This document shows positions 6,909-11,584 of a DNA stretch of 35,555 nucleotides, piece after piece. Source of the DNA: Solirubrobacteraceae bacterium (lineage in GTDB: Bacteria > Actinomycetota > Thermoleophilia > Solirubrobacterales > Solirubrobacteraceae); the NCBI GenBank assembly GCA_024711025.1, contig JANJTP010000042.1:1-35555 (forward strand), read 5' to 3'. The notes under the pieces were generated by a model, which searched no databases, was not told the DNA's origin, and saw nothing but the letters and a program-made list of their open reading frames with translations. The position numbers were made by a program, and so were the translations under genes. How positions within the stretch are numbered: the stretch's first letter is position 1; every line of letters begins with the position of its first letter.

Positions 6909-9509
6909 CTAGGCGAGCGCCGCCTCGATCGCCGCCCTGGCGGCGTCGAGCGCCGCGGGCAGCCGTTCGGGGTCGCGGCCTCCGGCCTGGGCCATCGTGT
7001 CCCGGCCGCCTCCTCCACCGCCGACGATCTGCGCGGCGACCTTGACGACCTCGCCGGCGCGCACGCCGCGGGCGACGAGCGAGGGCGTCACGCTGGCGAC
7101 GAGGTGCACGCGGCCGTCGCCGGCGGCGCCGAGCACGATCGCCGCCTGCTCGCCGAGCTGTCCCTTGACGACGTCGGCGGCCTCCATCAGCGCCTTCGCG
7201 TCCGCGTCGGGGACGACCGCCGTGAGCACGCGGGCGCCCGCGATCTCGATCGCCCGCGAAGCCAGCTCGCCCACGTCGACGTGGCCGTTCGCACGCGCGC
7301 CGCGGCCCGTCGCGCGCCGCGACTCCTCGCGCAGCCGCTCGATCGCCTCCGGCACCCCCTCCGGGCTCGTGCGCAGCTCGACGGCGGCGCGGCGCAGCAG
7401 CTCGTCGTGCTCGCGCATCAGTCGCACCGCCGCCGGCCCCGTGATCGCCTCGATCCGGCGCACGTTCGCCGCGCTCGAGCCCTCGCTGACGATGCGCAGC
7501 AGGCCGATCTCCGACGTGGAGGAGACGTGGGTGCCGCCGCACAGCTCGCGCGAGTAGCCCCCGTCGCCGATCTCGACCATCCGCACGACGTCCCCGTACT
7601 TCTCGCCGAACAGCGCCATCGCCCCCAGCCGGCGCGCCTCGTCGAGCGTCGTCGTCAGCGGGCGGACCGGCAGGCTCTCGAGGATCCGCGCATTGACCTC
7701 GTCCTCGACGTGGCGCCTGTCCTCCTCGCTGAGCTTGGCGGTGTGCGTGAAGTCGAAGCGCAGCTTGTCCGGGCCGACGTACGAGCCGGCCTGGCGCACG
7801 TGGTCGCCGAGCCGGGCGCGCAGTGCCGCGTGCAGCAGGTGGGTGGCGGTGTGGTTGCAGGCGGTGGCGTGCCGCGCGGCGCGGTCGACGCTCGCCACGA
7901 CCCGCGTGCCCGGGCTCATCTCGCCCTCGAGCACGTCGACGACGAGCGCCTGATCCTCGCCGGCGCGCAGCACGTCGACGACCTGGGCGACGCAGCCGCC
8001 CCGCTCGCAGCGCACGAGCCCCTCGTCCGAGACCTGGCCGCCGCCCTGCGCGTAGAACGGCGACTCGGCGAGCTTCACGATCGTCCGTCCGTCCTGCTCC
8101 CCGACGCCGGCCACGGCGGTGTGTACGTCGAGCTGCTCGTAGCCGACGAACTGCGACGGCTCGGCCGCGACCTCGCGGACCAGCTCCTCCGAGCGACCCA
8201 CCTTCTTCGACGTCGATGCGGCCGCCGAGCGGGCGCGCTGCTCGTCCATCAGCCGCCGGAAGCCCTCCTCGTCACCGAACGGGACGCCGCGCTCGCCGGC
8301 GATCTCGCGCGTCAGCTCGATCGGGAAGCCGAACGTGTCGTGCAGGCGGAATGCGTCGACGGCCCCGATCTCGCCGGCGGCCAGCAGGTCGTCCAGCAGG
8401 CGCGTGCCCTGCTCGAGCGTGCGCCTGAAGCCGTCCTCCTCGGCGCGAGCCCACTTGAGGATCGTCTTCCGCTGGCGCTCCAGCTCGGGGTAGGCCCCGC
8501 GCATCAGCTCGATGACCTGCTCGACCAGACGCGGCAGGAAGACGCCCTCGATGCCGATCCGAGTGCCCTGCTGGATCGCACGGCGCATGACCCGGCGCAG
8601 GATGTAGCCGCGATCCTCGTTGCTCGGGACGACGCCGTCGCCGATCAGGAACGCCGTCGCACGCGAGTGGTCGGCGATGATCCGCAGCGCGCGCTCGTCG
8701 TCCTTGCGGGTCGCCAGCTCGCGGCCGAGCGCCATCAGCGGCGCGAACTGGTCGGTCTCGAAGATCGTCGGCACGCCCTGCTTGATCAACGCCATCCGGT
8801 TCAGCCCGAGGCCGGTGTCGATGCTCGGCGCCGGCAGCGGCGCGAGCGTCCCCGGCGGATCCTGGTCGAACTGCATGAAGACCAGGTTCCAGTACTCCAG
8901 GAAGCGCTCGTTCTCGCCACCGGGAAGGTCGTCGGCCGAGCCGAAGTCAAGCCCGCGATCGAGGTAGAGCTCGCTGCACGGGCCGCACGGCCCCGTCGCG
9001 CCGGCCTGCCAGAAGTTCTCCGAGCGCGGGCACAGGACGATCCGCTCGCGCGGCACGCCGACCGACTCCCAGGCGGCGATCGCCTCCTCGTCGGGCCCGA
9101 GCCCCAGCTCGTCGTCACCCTCGAACACTGTGATCCAGATGTCCTCGGGGCTGAAGCCGAAGCCCTCGAGCGAGAGCCTCCAGGCGAGCTCAATCGCTCC
9201 CGGCTTGAAGTAGTCGCCGATCGAGAAGTTGCCGAGCATCTCGAAGAACGTCAGGTGGCGGGCGGTGTTGCCGATGTTCTCGATATCGGTTGTGCGGAAG
9301 CACTTCTGGCAGCTCGTCAGACGCCGCGACGGCGGCTCCTCGATGCCGAGGAAGTAGCCCTTCAGCGGATGCATGCCGGCGGTCGTCAGCAGGACGGAGG
9401 CGTCGAACGTCGCCGGGACGAGCGAGGCCGACTCGAGGCGCCGGTGGCCCTCGCGCGCGAAGAACTCCAGGAAGGTCTCGCGGATCTCGTCCGACGTCGT
9501 GCTGCTCAT
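6909..9509 (-). CDS. alaS: Alanyl-tRNA synthetase
   Basis: AlaS charges tRNA-Ala and edits mischarged Ser/Gly. The 866-residue protein opens with the class II catalytic domain (FLEFFAREGHRRLESASLVP, then TTAGMHPLKGYF). It carries the editing-domain zinc motifs HTATHLLHAAL and CGGTHVSSTSEIG, and ends with a C-Ala/DHHA1 region containing the glycine-rich GGGGGGRDTMAQAGG. The start at 9509 (MSSTTSDEIRETF) forms an ATGA overlap with the mnmA stop; another in-frame ATG lies 18 nt upstream at 9527 inside mnmA and is less likely. All expected domains are present and no frameshift is visible. Confidence 0.97.
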   Translation of the reverse strand: MSSTTSDEIRETFLEFFAREGHRRLESASLVPATFDASVLLTTAGMHPLKGYFLGIEEPPSRRLTSCQKCFRTTDIENIGNTARHLTFFEMLGNFSIGDYFKPGAIELAWRLSLEGFGFSPEDIWITVFEGDDELGLGPDEEAIAAWESVGVPRERIVLCPRSENFWQAGATGPCGPCSELYLDRGLDFGSADDLPGGENERFLEYWNLVFMQFDQDPPGTLAPLPAPSIDTGLGLNRMALIKQGVPTIFETDQFAPLMALGRELATRKDDERALRIIADHSRATAFLIGDGVVPSNEDRGYILRRVMRRAIQQGTRIGIEGVFLPRLVEQVIELMRGAYPELERQRKTILKWARAEEDGFRRTLEQGTRLLDDLLAAGEIGAVDAFRLHDTFGFPIELTREIAGERGVPFGDEEGFRRLMDEQRARSAAASTSKKVGRSEELVREVAAEPSQFVGYEQLDVHTAVAGVGEQDGRTIVKLAESPFYAQGGGQVSDEGLVRCERGGCVAQVVDVLRAGEDQALVVDVLEGEMSPGTRVVASVDRAARHATACNHTATHLLHAALRARLGDHVRQAGSYVGPDKLRFDFTHTAKLSEEDRRHVEDEVNARILESLPVRPLTTTLDEARRLGAMALFGEKYGDVVRMVEIGDGGYSRELCGGTHVSSTSEIGLLRIVSEGSSAANVRRIEAITGPAAVRLMREHDELLRRAAVELRTSPEGVPEAIERLREESRRATGRGARANGHVDVGELASRAIEIAGARVLTAVVPDADAKALMEAADVVKGQLGEQAAIVLGAAGDGRVHLVASVTPSLVARGVRAGEVVKVAAQIVGGGGGGRDTMAQAGGRDPERLPAALDAARAAIEAALA

Positions 9510-10918
9510 CGAACGATTGTCGCGCATCCCACGACGCGGTCGCCGCTACGCAGGACGGCAACCTGCCCTGGTGCGACCGCCCACGCCGGCTCGCGCAGCT
9601 CCAGCAGCTCCCCCCGCAGCACGCAGGGCAGCGGCCGCGCCCGGTAGCGCAGCTGCACCAGCTCGACCTCGTCGGCCGGTCGATGCAGGCGCAGATCGGT
9701 CAGGCGAACGGTGTCGGCGACGAGCGCCTCGCGCGGCGCGACGGCGACGGTGTTCGCGCTCACGTCGGTCGCGCGGACGTAGCGCGGCTCGTCGGTCCCG
9801 CCGATCCCCAGACCGCGCCGCTGGCCGACGGTGTAGGCGTGCGCCCCGCGATGGCGCCCGATCCGCCGGCCGCGCTCGTCGACGATCGCGCCTGGACGCT
9901 CGCGCGGGCCGCCATGGCGCGCGAGGAAGGCCTCGCGCCCCGTGCCGGCGAGGAAGCAGAGGTCCTGGGAGTCCGGCTTGTCGGCGACGGTCAGGCCTGC
10001 CCGCGCGGCGATCGCGCGGACCTCGGGCTTCGTCAGCTCGCCCAGCGGGAAGCGCAGGCGCGCGATCTTCTCCGGAGAGAGCGCGGCGAGCACGTAGCTC
10101 TGGTCCTTCGCGGGATCGGCGGCTGTGCGAAGCAGGCCGTCGGCCGAGATCCGCGCGTAGTGCCCGGTCGCGAGTCGCGCCGCGCCCAGCCGCGCGGCCA
10201 GCTCGAGCATCCCGTCGATCCGCACCGCGCCGTTGCAGCGCACGCACGGGTTCGGCGTCAGCCCCCGGGCATGATCGGCGACCCACGGCTCGACGACTCC
10301 CGCGCGGAAGGCGTCCCGCAGGTCGAGTGTGAGATGCGGCAGGCCGAGCCCGTGGGCAAGCGAGCGAGCGGCGAGCACCGCGCTCGCCGAGCAGCATGAG
10401 CGCTCCGCGTCGTTGTGCTCGTCGCGCCACAACTCGAGCGTCACGGCAACGGGCTGCGCGTCGCGCCCGGCGAGCAGCGCAGCGACCGCGCTGTCGACGC
10501 CGCCGCTCATCGCGACGAGCACGCGGTCGGCGCGCGGCGCAAGCGCGGCGCCGGCGATCGCGGCGCCGCCGAGCGCACGGGCGAGCGCGTCGGCGGCAAG
10601 ATCGGCGGCGTGGAGCTTGCCGGCCGTCAGGCCGCCGAGCTCAGCGGCGACTGCGGCCGCGTCGATCCGTGCGGCGTCGAGCAGCGAAGCCCCCTCGGCG
10701 AGCTCGACGGCGGCGCTCGCCGCCGCGATCGTCGCACCGCAGCCCTCGGCCTCGAAGCGGGCGCTGGTAACGCGATCGCCATCGACGGCGACGGCGAACC
10801 GCACGAGGTCGCCACAGGCGACCGAGCCGGCGCTTGCGGCGTGCGCGCCCTCGACGGCGCCCGCGATCCCACGGCCACGCGGGTGGCGCAGGTGCTCCTC
10901 GAAGCGCTCGTCGGCCAT
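9506..10918 (-). CDS. mnmA: tRNA-specific 2-thiouridylase MnmA with N-terminal IscU/NifU-like domain
   Basis: The C-terminal part (about residues 130-470) is MnmA, which thiolates U34 of tRNA-Lys/Glu/Gln. It has the PP-loop SGGVDS at 138-143, a catalytic Cys in TPNPCVRCN (Cys225/Cys228) and the second Cys in DSQDLCFL (Cys321). The first about 115 residues resemble the IscU/NifU-N scaffold: HLRHPRGRG, Cys35 in ACGDLVRF, Cys60 in EGCGATIAAASA, and KLHAADLAADAL at 101-112, where IscU has an HC pair. Here the third cluster cysteine is Ala104, with His103 kept. The gene is 30 nt downstream of a membrane-anchored thioredoxin-like protein and overlaps alaS. A sulfur-relay role for the extra domain is my inference. 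Confidence 0.9.
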   Translation of the reverse strand: MADERFEEHLRHPRGRGIAGAVEGAHAASAGSVACGDLVRFAVAVDGDRVTSARFEAEGCGATIAAASAAVELAEGASLLDAARIDAAAVAAELGGLTAGKLHAADLAADALARALGGAAIAGAALAPRADRVLVAMSGGVDSAVAALLAGRDAQPVAVTLELWRDEHNDAERSCCSASAVLAARSLAHGLGLPHLTLDLRDAFRAGVVEPWVADHARGLTPNPCVRCNGAVRIDGMLELAARLGAARLATGHYARISADGLLRTAADPAKDQSYVLAALSPEKIARLRFPLGELTKPEVRAIAARAGLTVADKPDSQDLCFLAGTGREAFLARHGGPRERPGAIVDERGRRIGRHRGAHAYTVGQRRGLGIGGTDEPRYVRATDVSANTVAVAPREALVADTVRLTDLRLHRPADEVELVQLRYRARPLPCVLRGELLELREPAWAVAPGQVAVLRSGDRVVGCATIVR

Positions 10919-10948: not shown

Positions 10949-11584
10949 TTAGCGAGCGGCGCGGCGGCGCACGTCGCCGACCGCCTGGGCGATCTCGCCG
11001 GCGGTCGTGAAGCCGACGATTACGCGAGCGCGCCGCGACGGCCCGACGACGAGCGTCGTGGGCGCCTGCGAGACGGATGCCGAGCGCGTGAAGACGGCGT
11101 AGCGACCGACGTCGGCGATCGACGCCACCCGCACGACGACTCGGCTCGCCCGTGCCCGGGAGCGTGCCGCGGCCACGACCGCGGCGCTGTCGGCGGAGCC
11201 GTTGCGAAAGACGAGCACGACCGTCCTGCCGCGATCCAGCGCCGCGACCAGCGAGCGCGACGGACCGGAGCCCAGCCGGGCCCGTCGGCGCGCGCCGCGC
11301 TCGGACGTCTTCTCGGCCGCGCCCGCGCCGGATGCGGTTCGCGGCGTCACGTGCCGCTCGCCGGCCCGGCCTGCGGCGGCCTCGCTGCGTGCCGCAGCCG
11401 CGTCGGCGACCTCCTTGGCGCGCCGCGCCTGCTGGACGTCGCTCGCCAGTCCGCCGGCCGCAACGGGCGGTGGCTCGATCGGCGGCTCCGCGACCTCCTT
11501 GGGGCGCAGGACGACGAGCCACAGAGCGCCGAGCGCGAGCACGGCGACCAGCGCGATCCGAAGCGGCTGCGAGACCTGCTGCAC
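10949..11584 (-). CDS. Membrane-anchored protein with probable thioredoxin-like fold, no CXXC
   Basis: I do not recognise a named family. The 211-residue protein has one N-terminal membrane segment (about residues 8-26), then a Pro/Glu and Ala/Arg-rich linker of about 75 residues. The C-terminal domain is about 100 residues. Its order (LVAALDRGRTVVLVFRNGSA, a strand VVVRVASI, then SVSQAPTTLVVGPSRRARV and GFTTAGEIAQAV) resembles thioredoxin: strand, helix, strand, cis-Pro loop (APTTLVV), strand pair, terminal helix. The position of the CXXC pair reads NGSADSA, so it cannot be a classical oxidoreductase. It may be a structural or binding variant exposed outside the membrane. It lies between aspS and mnmA on the same strand, 58 nt after aspS. 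Confidence 0.7.
   Translation of the reverse strand: MQQVSQPLRIALVAVLALGALWLVVLRPKEVAEPPIEPPPVAAGGLASDVQQARRAKEVADAAAARSEAAAGRAGERHVTPRTASGAGAAEKTSERGARRRARLGSGPSRSLVAALDRGRTVVLVFRNGSADSAAVVAAARSRARASRVVVRVASIADVGRYAVFTRSASVSQAPTTLVVGPSRRARVIVGFTTAGEIAQAVGDVRRRAAR

Follow-up and report, generated by a model that had tools for sequence, protein, structure and literature searches.

The 35,555-nucleotide stretch of contig JANJTP010000042.1 from a Solirubrobacteraceae bacterium (assembly GCA_024711025.1), called the window here, carries on its reverse strand a gene that joins an IscU-like domain to MnmA (TrmU), the tRNA 2-thiouridine synthase. The gene and its two parts were delimited with Pfam, NCBIfam and an AlphaFold2 (AF2) model of the product, and are located as follows; residue numbers are those of the encoded protein.

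9506..10918, reverse strand: IscU-like/MnmA fusion gene, 470 amino acids, ATG start, TGA stop at 9506-9508 (Pfam, NCBIfam, AF2)
10568..10906, reverse strand: IscU/NifU_N-like domain, residues 5-117 (Pfam NifU_N; IscU fold in the AF2 model)
9509..10534, reverse strand: MnmA part, residues 129-470 (NCBIfam NF001138; superposition of this remainder of the AF2 model on MnmA structures, Z 35-39)
10235..10246, reverse strand: MnmA Cys225-x-x-Cys228 (NPCVRCN), Cys at both positions in 180/180 class genomes
9956..9958, reverse strand: MnmA Cys321, the equivalent of E. coli Cys199 by alignment to E. coli MnmA, Cys in 180/180

Domains and occurrence of the fusion

The sequence-only reading of the window had proposed an IscU-like/MnmA fusion at 9506-10918, and this proposal was borne out by Pfam, NCBIfam and the AF2 fold. 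At the N-terminus, where an IscU profile match had been expected, NifU_N (PF01592) matched residues 8-116 with an E value of 7.5e-23 and 81.5 bits against a cut-off of 22. The MnmA domains followed at residues 132-324 (tRNA_Me_trans), 330-394 (tRNA_Me_trans_M) and 420-468 (tRNA_Me_trans_C), and the protein passed the MnmA models NF001138 (an equivalog; 334 bits, cut-off 284) and TIGR00420 (274 bits, cut-off 237). The PP-loop SGGVDS was present, and the equivalents of E. coli Cys102 and Cys199 were kept in the alignment to 2der; Cys228 and Cys321 were retained in 180/180 relatives. The protein shares with MnmA the full length, a score over the cut-off, the catalytic cysteines and the P-loop, and differs from it by about 128 additional N-terminal residues, which hold the second domain.

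The fused domain itself scored below the equivalog cut-offs of the scaffold families: 70.6 bits for NifU_clost, the clostridial NifU model and best match, 55.7 bits for NifU, 54.5 against 192.4 bits for the IscU equivalog domain and 34.3 against 92.5 bits for SufU. The AF2 model of the full fusion had a predicted local distance difference test (pLDDT) score of 94.5 and a predicted template modelling (pTM) score of 0.92. Its N-domain superposed on Archaeoglobus fulgidus IscU (4eb5_C) with Z 21.7 and a root-mean-square deviation of 1.9 Å over 131 residues, and fitted SufU less well (Z about 15). The fused domain thus shares with IscU/ISCU the fold, the profile and four of the five assembly-site residues at near-equal numbers (35, 37, 60/61 and 103), and differs from it in the missing residue-104 receptor, the attachment to MnmA and the scores under the IscU/NifU cut-offs. 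Judged from its sequence, the protein is an MnmA with a captured IscU as its N-terminus.

How widespread the fusion is, a check that the sequence-only reading had proposed, was determined in the class of the window and beyond. In the class, 299 genomes were searched, 289 had a match and 180 were read with one sequence each, without a random draw. The relatives are designated by working family codes (f-numbers), and the named ones include Solirubrobacteraceae, Thermoleophilaceae and Gaiella (stub). Among the 180 genomes, 146 had the domain, 30 (f7) had a short stub, 3 (f6) were unfused and 1 (f12) was truncated; this sample took in only three f6, three f12 (the truncated one included) and five f8 genomes, and a sixth f8 locus (L325) was added separately. 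A domain-profile search of 396 genomes of the phylum reached family f23 of another class, in which 9/10 loci were fused; the two parts of the tenth (L326) lay in different frames and were scored as not fused. In 80 named loci there were 9 fusions (L101-L108, L130), 5 stubs (L109-L113) and 66 unfused genes. The window's genome has the fusion as its sole copy. Because the fusion recurs in one continuous frame across many genomes, 146/180 in the class, a frameshift, a misassembly or a chance origin was ruled out.

A single f73 genome (G550) also had a fusion, placed elsewhere in the MnmA tree; at this locus, L322, an apparently separate IscU-MnmA fusion has Asp at position 35 and keeps Cys60 and Cys104. 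The gene at L103, whose public record is titled Bifidobacterium breve, is 67% identical to the fusion of the window, and the record looks like a mislabelled metagenome bin. Searches of the open-licence literature turned up no title or abstract opening that dealt with an IscU-MnmA fusion. Sulfur carriers attached to the proteins they serve are a familiar concept, as in the rhodanese domain of ThiI.

Ligand residues of the fused domain

The residues at the assembly site of the domain are encoded as follows.

10814..10816, reverse strand: Cys35, metal ligand in ISCU and sulfur acceptor in SufU; Cys in all 146 non-stub, non-truncated class domains
10808..10810, reverse strand: Asp37, metal ligand position; 114/114 in f1-f5
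10739..10741, reverse strand: Cys60, metal ligand position; 114/114 in f1-f5
10610..10612, reverse strand: His103, metal ligand position; 114/114 in f1-f5
10607..10609, reverse strand: Ala104, where ISCU has the persulfide-receptor Cys; Ala in 84, Gly in 28 and Val in 2 of 114 f1-f5 genomes

The sequence-only reading had placed Cys35, Cys60, His103-Ala104, Cys228 and Cys321 correctly and had missed Asp37, the fourth kept ligand; Ala104, whose constancy it had proposed to check, was not constant, the constant feature being the absence of Cys at 104. The pattern C-D-C-H at 35/37/60/103 with a non-Cys residue at 104 was present in 114/114 f1-f5 genomes, whose sequences are related and do not represent 114 independent events. 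The invariant columns of f1-f5 were residues 35, 37, 60, 103 and 111, or 5/113 of the domain, and 56/339 of MnmA. The chance that five random invariant columns include the four ligands is about 8e-7; the true figure is larger, since the sequences are related and Cys and His tend to be conserved in general.

Other families kept different parts of the site. In f23, C-D-C-H was accompanied by Gly or Ala at 104 (9/9); the same nine loci (L311-L318, L327) have an extra conserved cysteine 3 residues past Cys60 (GCAAC or GCVAC), which again makes three cysteines. His103 was lost in f10 and f11, which had C-D-C-x-C (12/12), as did 4/6 of the f8 sequences; the other two, C-G-C-S-S and, in L325, C-S-C-Y-T, count against this pattern. 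Cys35 was the sole residue left of the five in f9 (13/13) and f12 (2/2 readable), and this retention favours a thiol role. The complete C-D-C-H-C set was found in none of the fused domains read, versus 16/16 standalone IscUs from the class and other groups, and a complete Fe-S scaffold was therefore rejected. Standalone SufUs had C-D-C-K-C in 17/17 local copies, which matches the C-D-C-x-C of f10, f11 and 4/6 f8; L059 was left out of the standalone control counts.

The Fe/Zn ligands reported for ISCU are Cys35, Cys61, Asp37 and His103, and its persulfide receptor is Cys104 (PMC8924461). Persulfidation is reported to need Asp71, Cys95 and Cys138, which are 37, 61 and 104 in precursor numbering (PMC11021402). 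Since residue 104 is never Cys in f1-f5 and f23, the ISCU receptor is not usable by the fused domain; and since the four retained residues are metal ligands and the lost one is the persulfide receptor, conservation first indicates a metal site and not a persulfide site. The acceptor described for SufU is Cys41, the equivalent of Cys35 (PMC11021402), and that of M. tuberculosis SufU is Cys40, freed once a His of SufS takes its place on zinc (PMC10216065). With SufU the fused domain shares a mononuclear-metal ligand set whose Cys35 counterpart (Cys41 in B. subtilis, Cys40 in M. tuberculosis) can be displaced: the acceptor Cys, the Asp and the second Cys of the Zn site are present as Cys35, Asp37 and Cys60. 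The fourth Cys ligand of the 17 local SufUs (Cys104) is absent, and the putative fourth ligand is His103 instead; in M. tuberculosis SufU the fourth Cys is described elsewhere than at 104 (PMC10216065). The domain of f1-f5 and f23 would accordingly be equipped as a SufU-type acceptor, the fourth ligand being His.

Gene neighbourhood and sulfur supply

The gene is flanked by the following reading frames.

6909..9509, reverse strand: alaS, the next gene downstream (in the list of open reading frames (ORFs) it starts earlier, with an ATG at 9527)
10949-11584, reverse strand: upstream ORF with a hydrophobic N-terminal stretch and no cysteine

A possible alaS ATG at 9507-9509 overlaps the TGA of the fusion (ATGA), and alaS also lies downstream in many relatives, which suggests that the fusion and alaS may form one operon. 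The upstream ORF had been read as a membrane thioredoxin-like protein; it has no convincing Pfam or NCBIfam match and, lacking cysteine, was rejected as a thiol partner, so that this neighbour gives the proposal no support. Weak relatives of it precede the fusion in several genomes of the same family.

In the unfused f6 genomes, an IscR-like frame (read from its translation), iscS, an intact iscU and mnmA are separate genes. The order iscS-iscU-mnmA also occurs in Coriobacteriia, Sporomusa and a Ruminococcus bin, and iscU-mnmA in a Pseudomonadota bin. These operons (Coriobacteriia, Negativicutes, Clostridia), together with the iscS-mnmA pair of other Actinomycetota, place the same partners side by side and differ from the fusion in that the proteins are separate and that IscU, where present, is an intact C-D-C-H-C. 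The gene immediately upstream of mnmA, whether fused or not, encodes a desulfurase in f6 (3/3), f10 (8/8), f11 (3/4, the fourth flank being too short) and f23 (10/10); this enzyme is of type I in f10, f11 and f23 (iscS in f23). In f1-f5 no dedicated desulfurase was found beside the gene, either in the 75 genomes whose sequence extends 1 kb or more upstream of the MnmA part or in 38 with shorter flanks. A link between the loss of Cys104 and the loss of an adjacent iscS was ruled out by f23, in which iscS is adjacent and Cys104 is nevertheless absent. The unfused operons of relatives point to a fusion of neighbouring genes, and the simplest history would be a fusion of adjacent iscU and mnmA, after which f1-f5, f8 and f9 lost the desulfurase gene next to it. 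In the MnmA tree, which was built quickly and leaves its deep forks open, the class and f23 fell together in a starred group (98), with the three unfused f6 among its members; at least three fused/unfused changes are needed, which fits one or several fusion events.

The genome of the window contains a suf cluster with SufS (501 bits) and SufU over their cut-offs and two SUFBD genes. SufS, the partner of SufU, is its only strong desulfurase: the other two Aminotran_5 proteins were rejected as desulfurases, their best matches being sub-cut-off ones to sufS (65 bits) and to pyridoxamine-pyruvate transaminase (419 bits). For type-I enzymes the NifS/IscS profile line was set at 200 bits, above the 114-152 bits of the f1-f4 matches (the best of G200 excepted), a range that includes the SufS of the window's genome. 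Among 40 genomes of f1-f4, the order of the window, only G200 exceeded this line, with a gene starting at contig base 51. Matches above 200 bits were found in f5 (9/10), f6 (3/3), f7 (1/7), f8 (7/7), f9 (5/5), f10 (4/4), f11 (3/3), f12 (1/2) and f23 (5/5). All 11 SufS copies found had His at Cys-19, a 19-residue spacing that agrees with His354 and Cys373 of M. tuberculosis, which are reported to serve in the ligand swap and in catalysis, respectively (PMC10216065). Type-II desulfurases are described as relying on a dedicated acceptor (PMC8300815).

The sequence-only reading had supposed that the fusion replaces the TusA-E relay. TusA was not found in the genome of the window (0/10 candidates; TusB-E were not searched for), so a TusA relay was rejected there and a relay of the E. 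coli type is unlikely; TusA was present in 11/23 genomes tested. In three f5 genomes (G007, G122, G001) a type-I-like desulfurase gene adjoins a TusA gene, apart from the fused mnmA. The absence of TusA fits the supposition, whereas the comparison itself was the wrong one, given the iscS-iscU-mnmA relatives and the direct transfer from YrvO (PMC11784392). The MnmA of B. subtilis, to our knowledge, has no acceptor domain. Its desulfurase YrvO is reported to feed MnmA directly (PMC11784392), which resembles the fusion in the lack of a Tus relay and differs from it in that YrvO is a dedicated desulfurase (PMC11784392).

Possible roles of the fused domain

The reading we prefer, at a little under an even chance, is that the fused domain binds a metal and serves MnmA in cis as a sulfur acceptor or docking module in the manner of SufU, and not as an Fe-S scaffold; although an IscU by descent, it would act as a SufU incorporated into its client protein. 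Cys35, Asp37, Cys60 and His103 would coordinate a single Zn or Fe ion and no [2Fe-2S] cluster. The metal-bound domain would dock the cysteine desulfurase of the cell, apparently SufS alone in the order of the window. Cys35 would leave the metal, as in SufU, take the persulfide and hand it on, inside the one chain, to Cys321 of MnmA, which would then thiolate U34. The earlier proposal that a two-cysteine domain carries a persulfide and feeds MnmA in cis survives in this form, most plausibly through Cys35 as the SufU-type acceptor; it is weakened in that the receptor reported for ISCU is residue 104, the one lost, and the kept residues are metal ligands.

Several observations weigh against this preferred reading. 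The fused domain is nearer to IscU/NifU than to SufU by sequence, a true SufU is encoded separately beside SufS, and the f73 fusion lacks Cys35. We know of no IscU-type domain that works with SufS. Furthermore, every ligand is lost from the domain of f7 in 30/30 genomes, where it is cut to about 70 residues, and this stub is as conserved as MnmA (mean majority frequency 0.80 vs 0.81). Since f7 does without any ligand, the chemistry of the domain is not universally needed, and a non-chemical role, probably a structural one, can stand alone at least in f7. The stub, which occurs in L091, L109-L113 and L181-L210 (f7 and named look-alikes), aligns with the IscU strands and the last helix, both ligand loops being excised. 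Its model has three strands and one helix (pLDDT 94.0, pTM 0.91). No IscU is among the 50 best Protein Data Bank (PDB) matches of this model, and the descent of the stub from IscU therefore rests on the alignment and the gene position.

A role in docking only is a less probable alternative, to which we give perhaps one chance in four: the metal-bound domain would recruit or position the desulfurase, the persulfide would go straight to MnmA Cys321, and the thiols of the domain would be metal ligands only. The invariant residues coincide exactly with the metal ligands and do not include the receptor Cys, the desulfurase cysteine is reported to bind the metal of ISCU in exchange with Cys35 (PMC8924461), YrvO is reported to give sulfur to MnmA directly (PMC11784392), and a desulfurase gene is adjacent in f6, f10, f11 and f23. 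However, f9 and f12 keep Cys35 after the other ligands have gone, which pure metal docking does not predict, and a type-II SufS normally requires a thiol acceptor.

We consider it improbable that the domain is a structural appendage, which would stabilise MnmA or help to hold the tRNA, with at most a structural Zn at the metal site and the skeleton only in f7. The conservation of the ligand-free f7 stub, its confidently predicted fold of strands and helix packed in one chain and the high pTM of the full fusion agree with such a role, whereas a purely structural role accounts poorly for four invariant ligands in an otherwise variable domain and for Cys35 as the one residue kept in f9 and f12. 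Equally improbable is a supply of iron or an Fe-S cluster to MnmA Cys225/Cys228/Cys321 in support of [4Fe-4S]-dependent thiolation: these cysteines are invariant in 180/180, the iron-ligand residues are retained and a [4Fe-4S] cluster on E. coli MnmA has been reported, and disputed (PMC11784392), but no fused domain has the complete IscU set, f7 has no remaining ligands, the genome encodes a suf operon that includes SufS, SufU and two SUFBD genes, and the three-cysteine type of MnmA is the common one (NPCxxCN in 68/80 loci), so that no special donor is called for.

With regard to the history of the preferred sulfur acceptor, a broader and more doubtful proposal, for which we see roughly one chance in three, is that after fusion the domain was converted, more than once, from an Fe-S scaffold with five residues to a four-ligand mononuclear-metal sulfur acceptor, dropping His103 or Cys104 by lineage. 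This change would have let SufS thiolate tRNA in bacteria in which IscS had been lost, and a later excision of the site in one lineage would have left a conserved, catalytically empty skeleton.

Whether MnmA works by a persulfide or a [4Fe-4S] cluster is a disputed question (PMC11784392). The graded relatives (C-D-C-H, C-D-C-C, Cys only, nothing) form a natural mutant panel for the residues that an acceptor domain needs, and the fusion suggests, in a form open to testing, how bacteria whose sole evident desulfurase is SufS supply tRNA thiolation.

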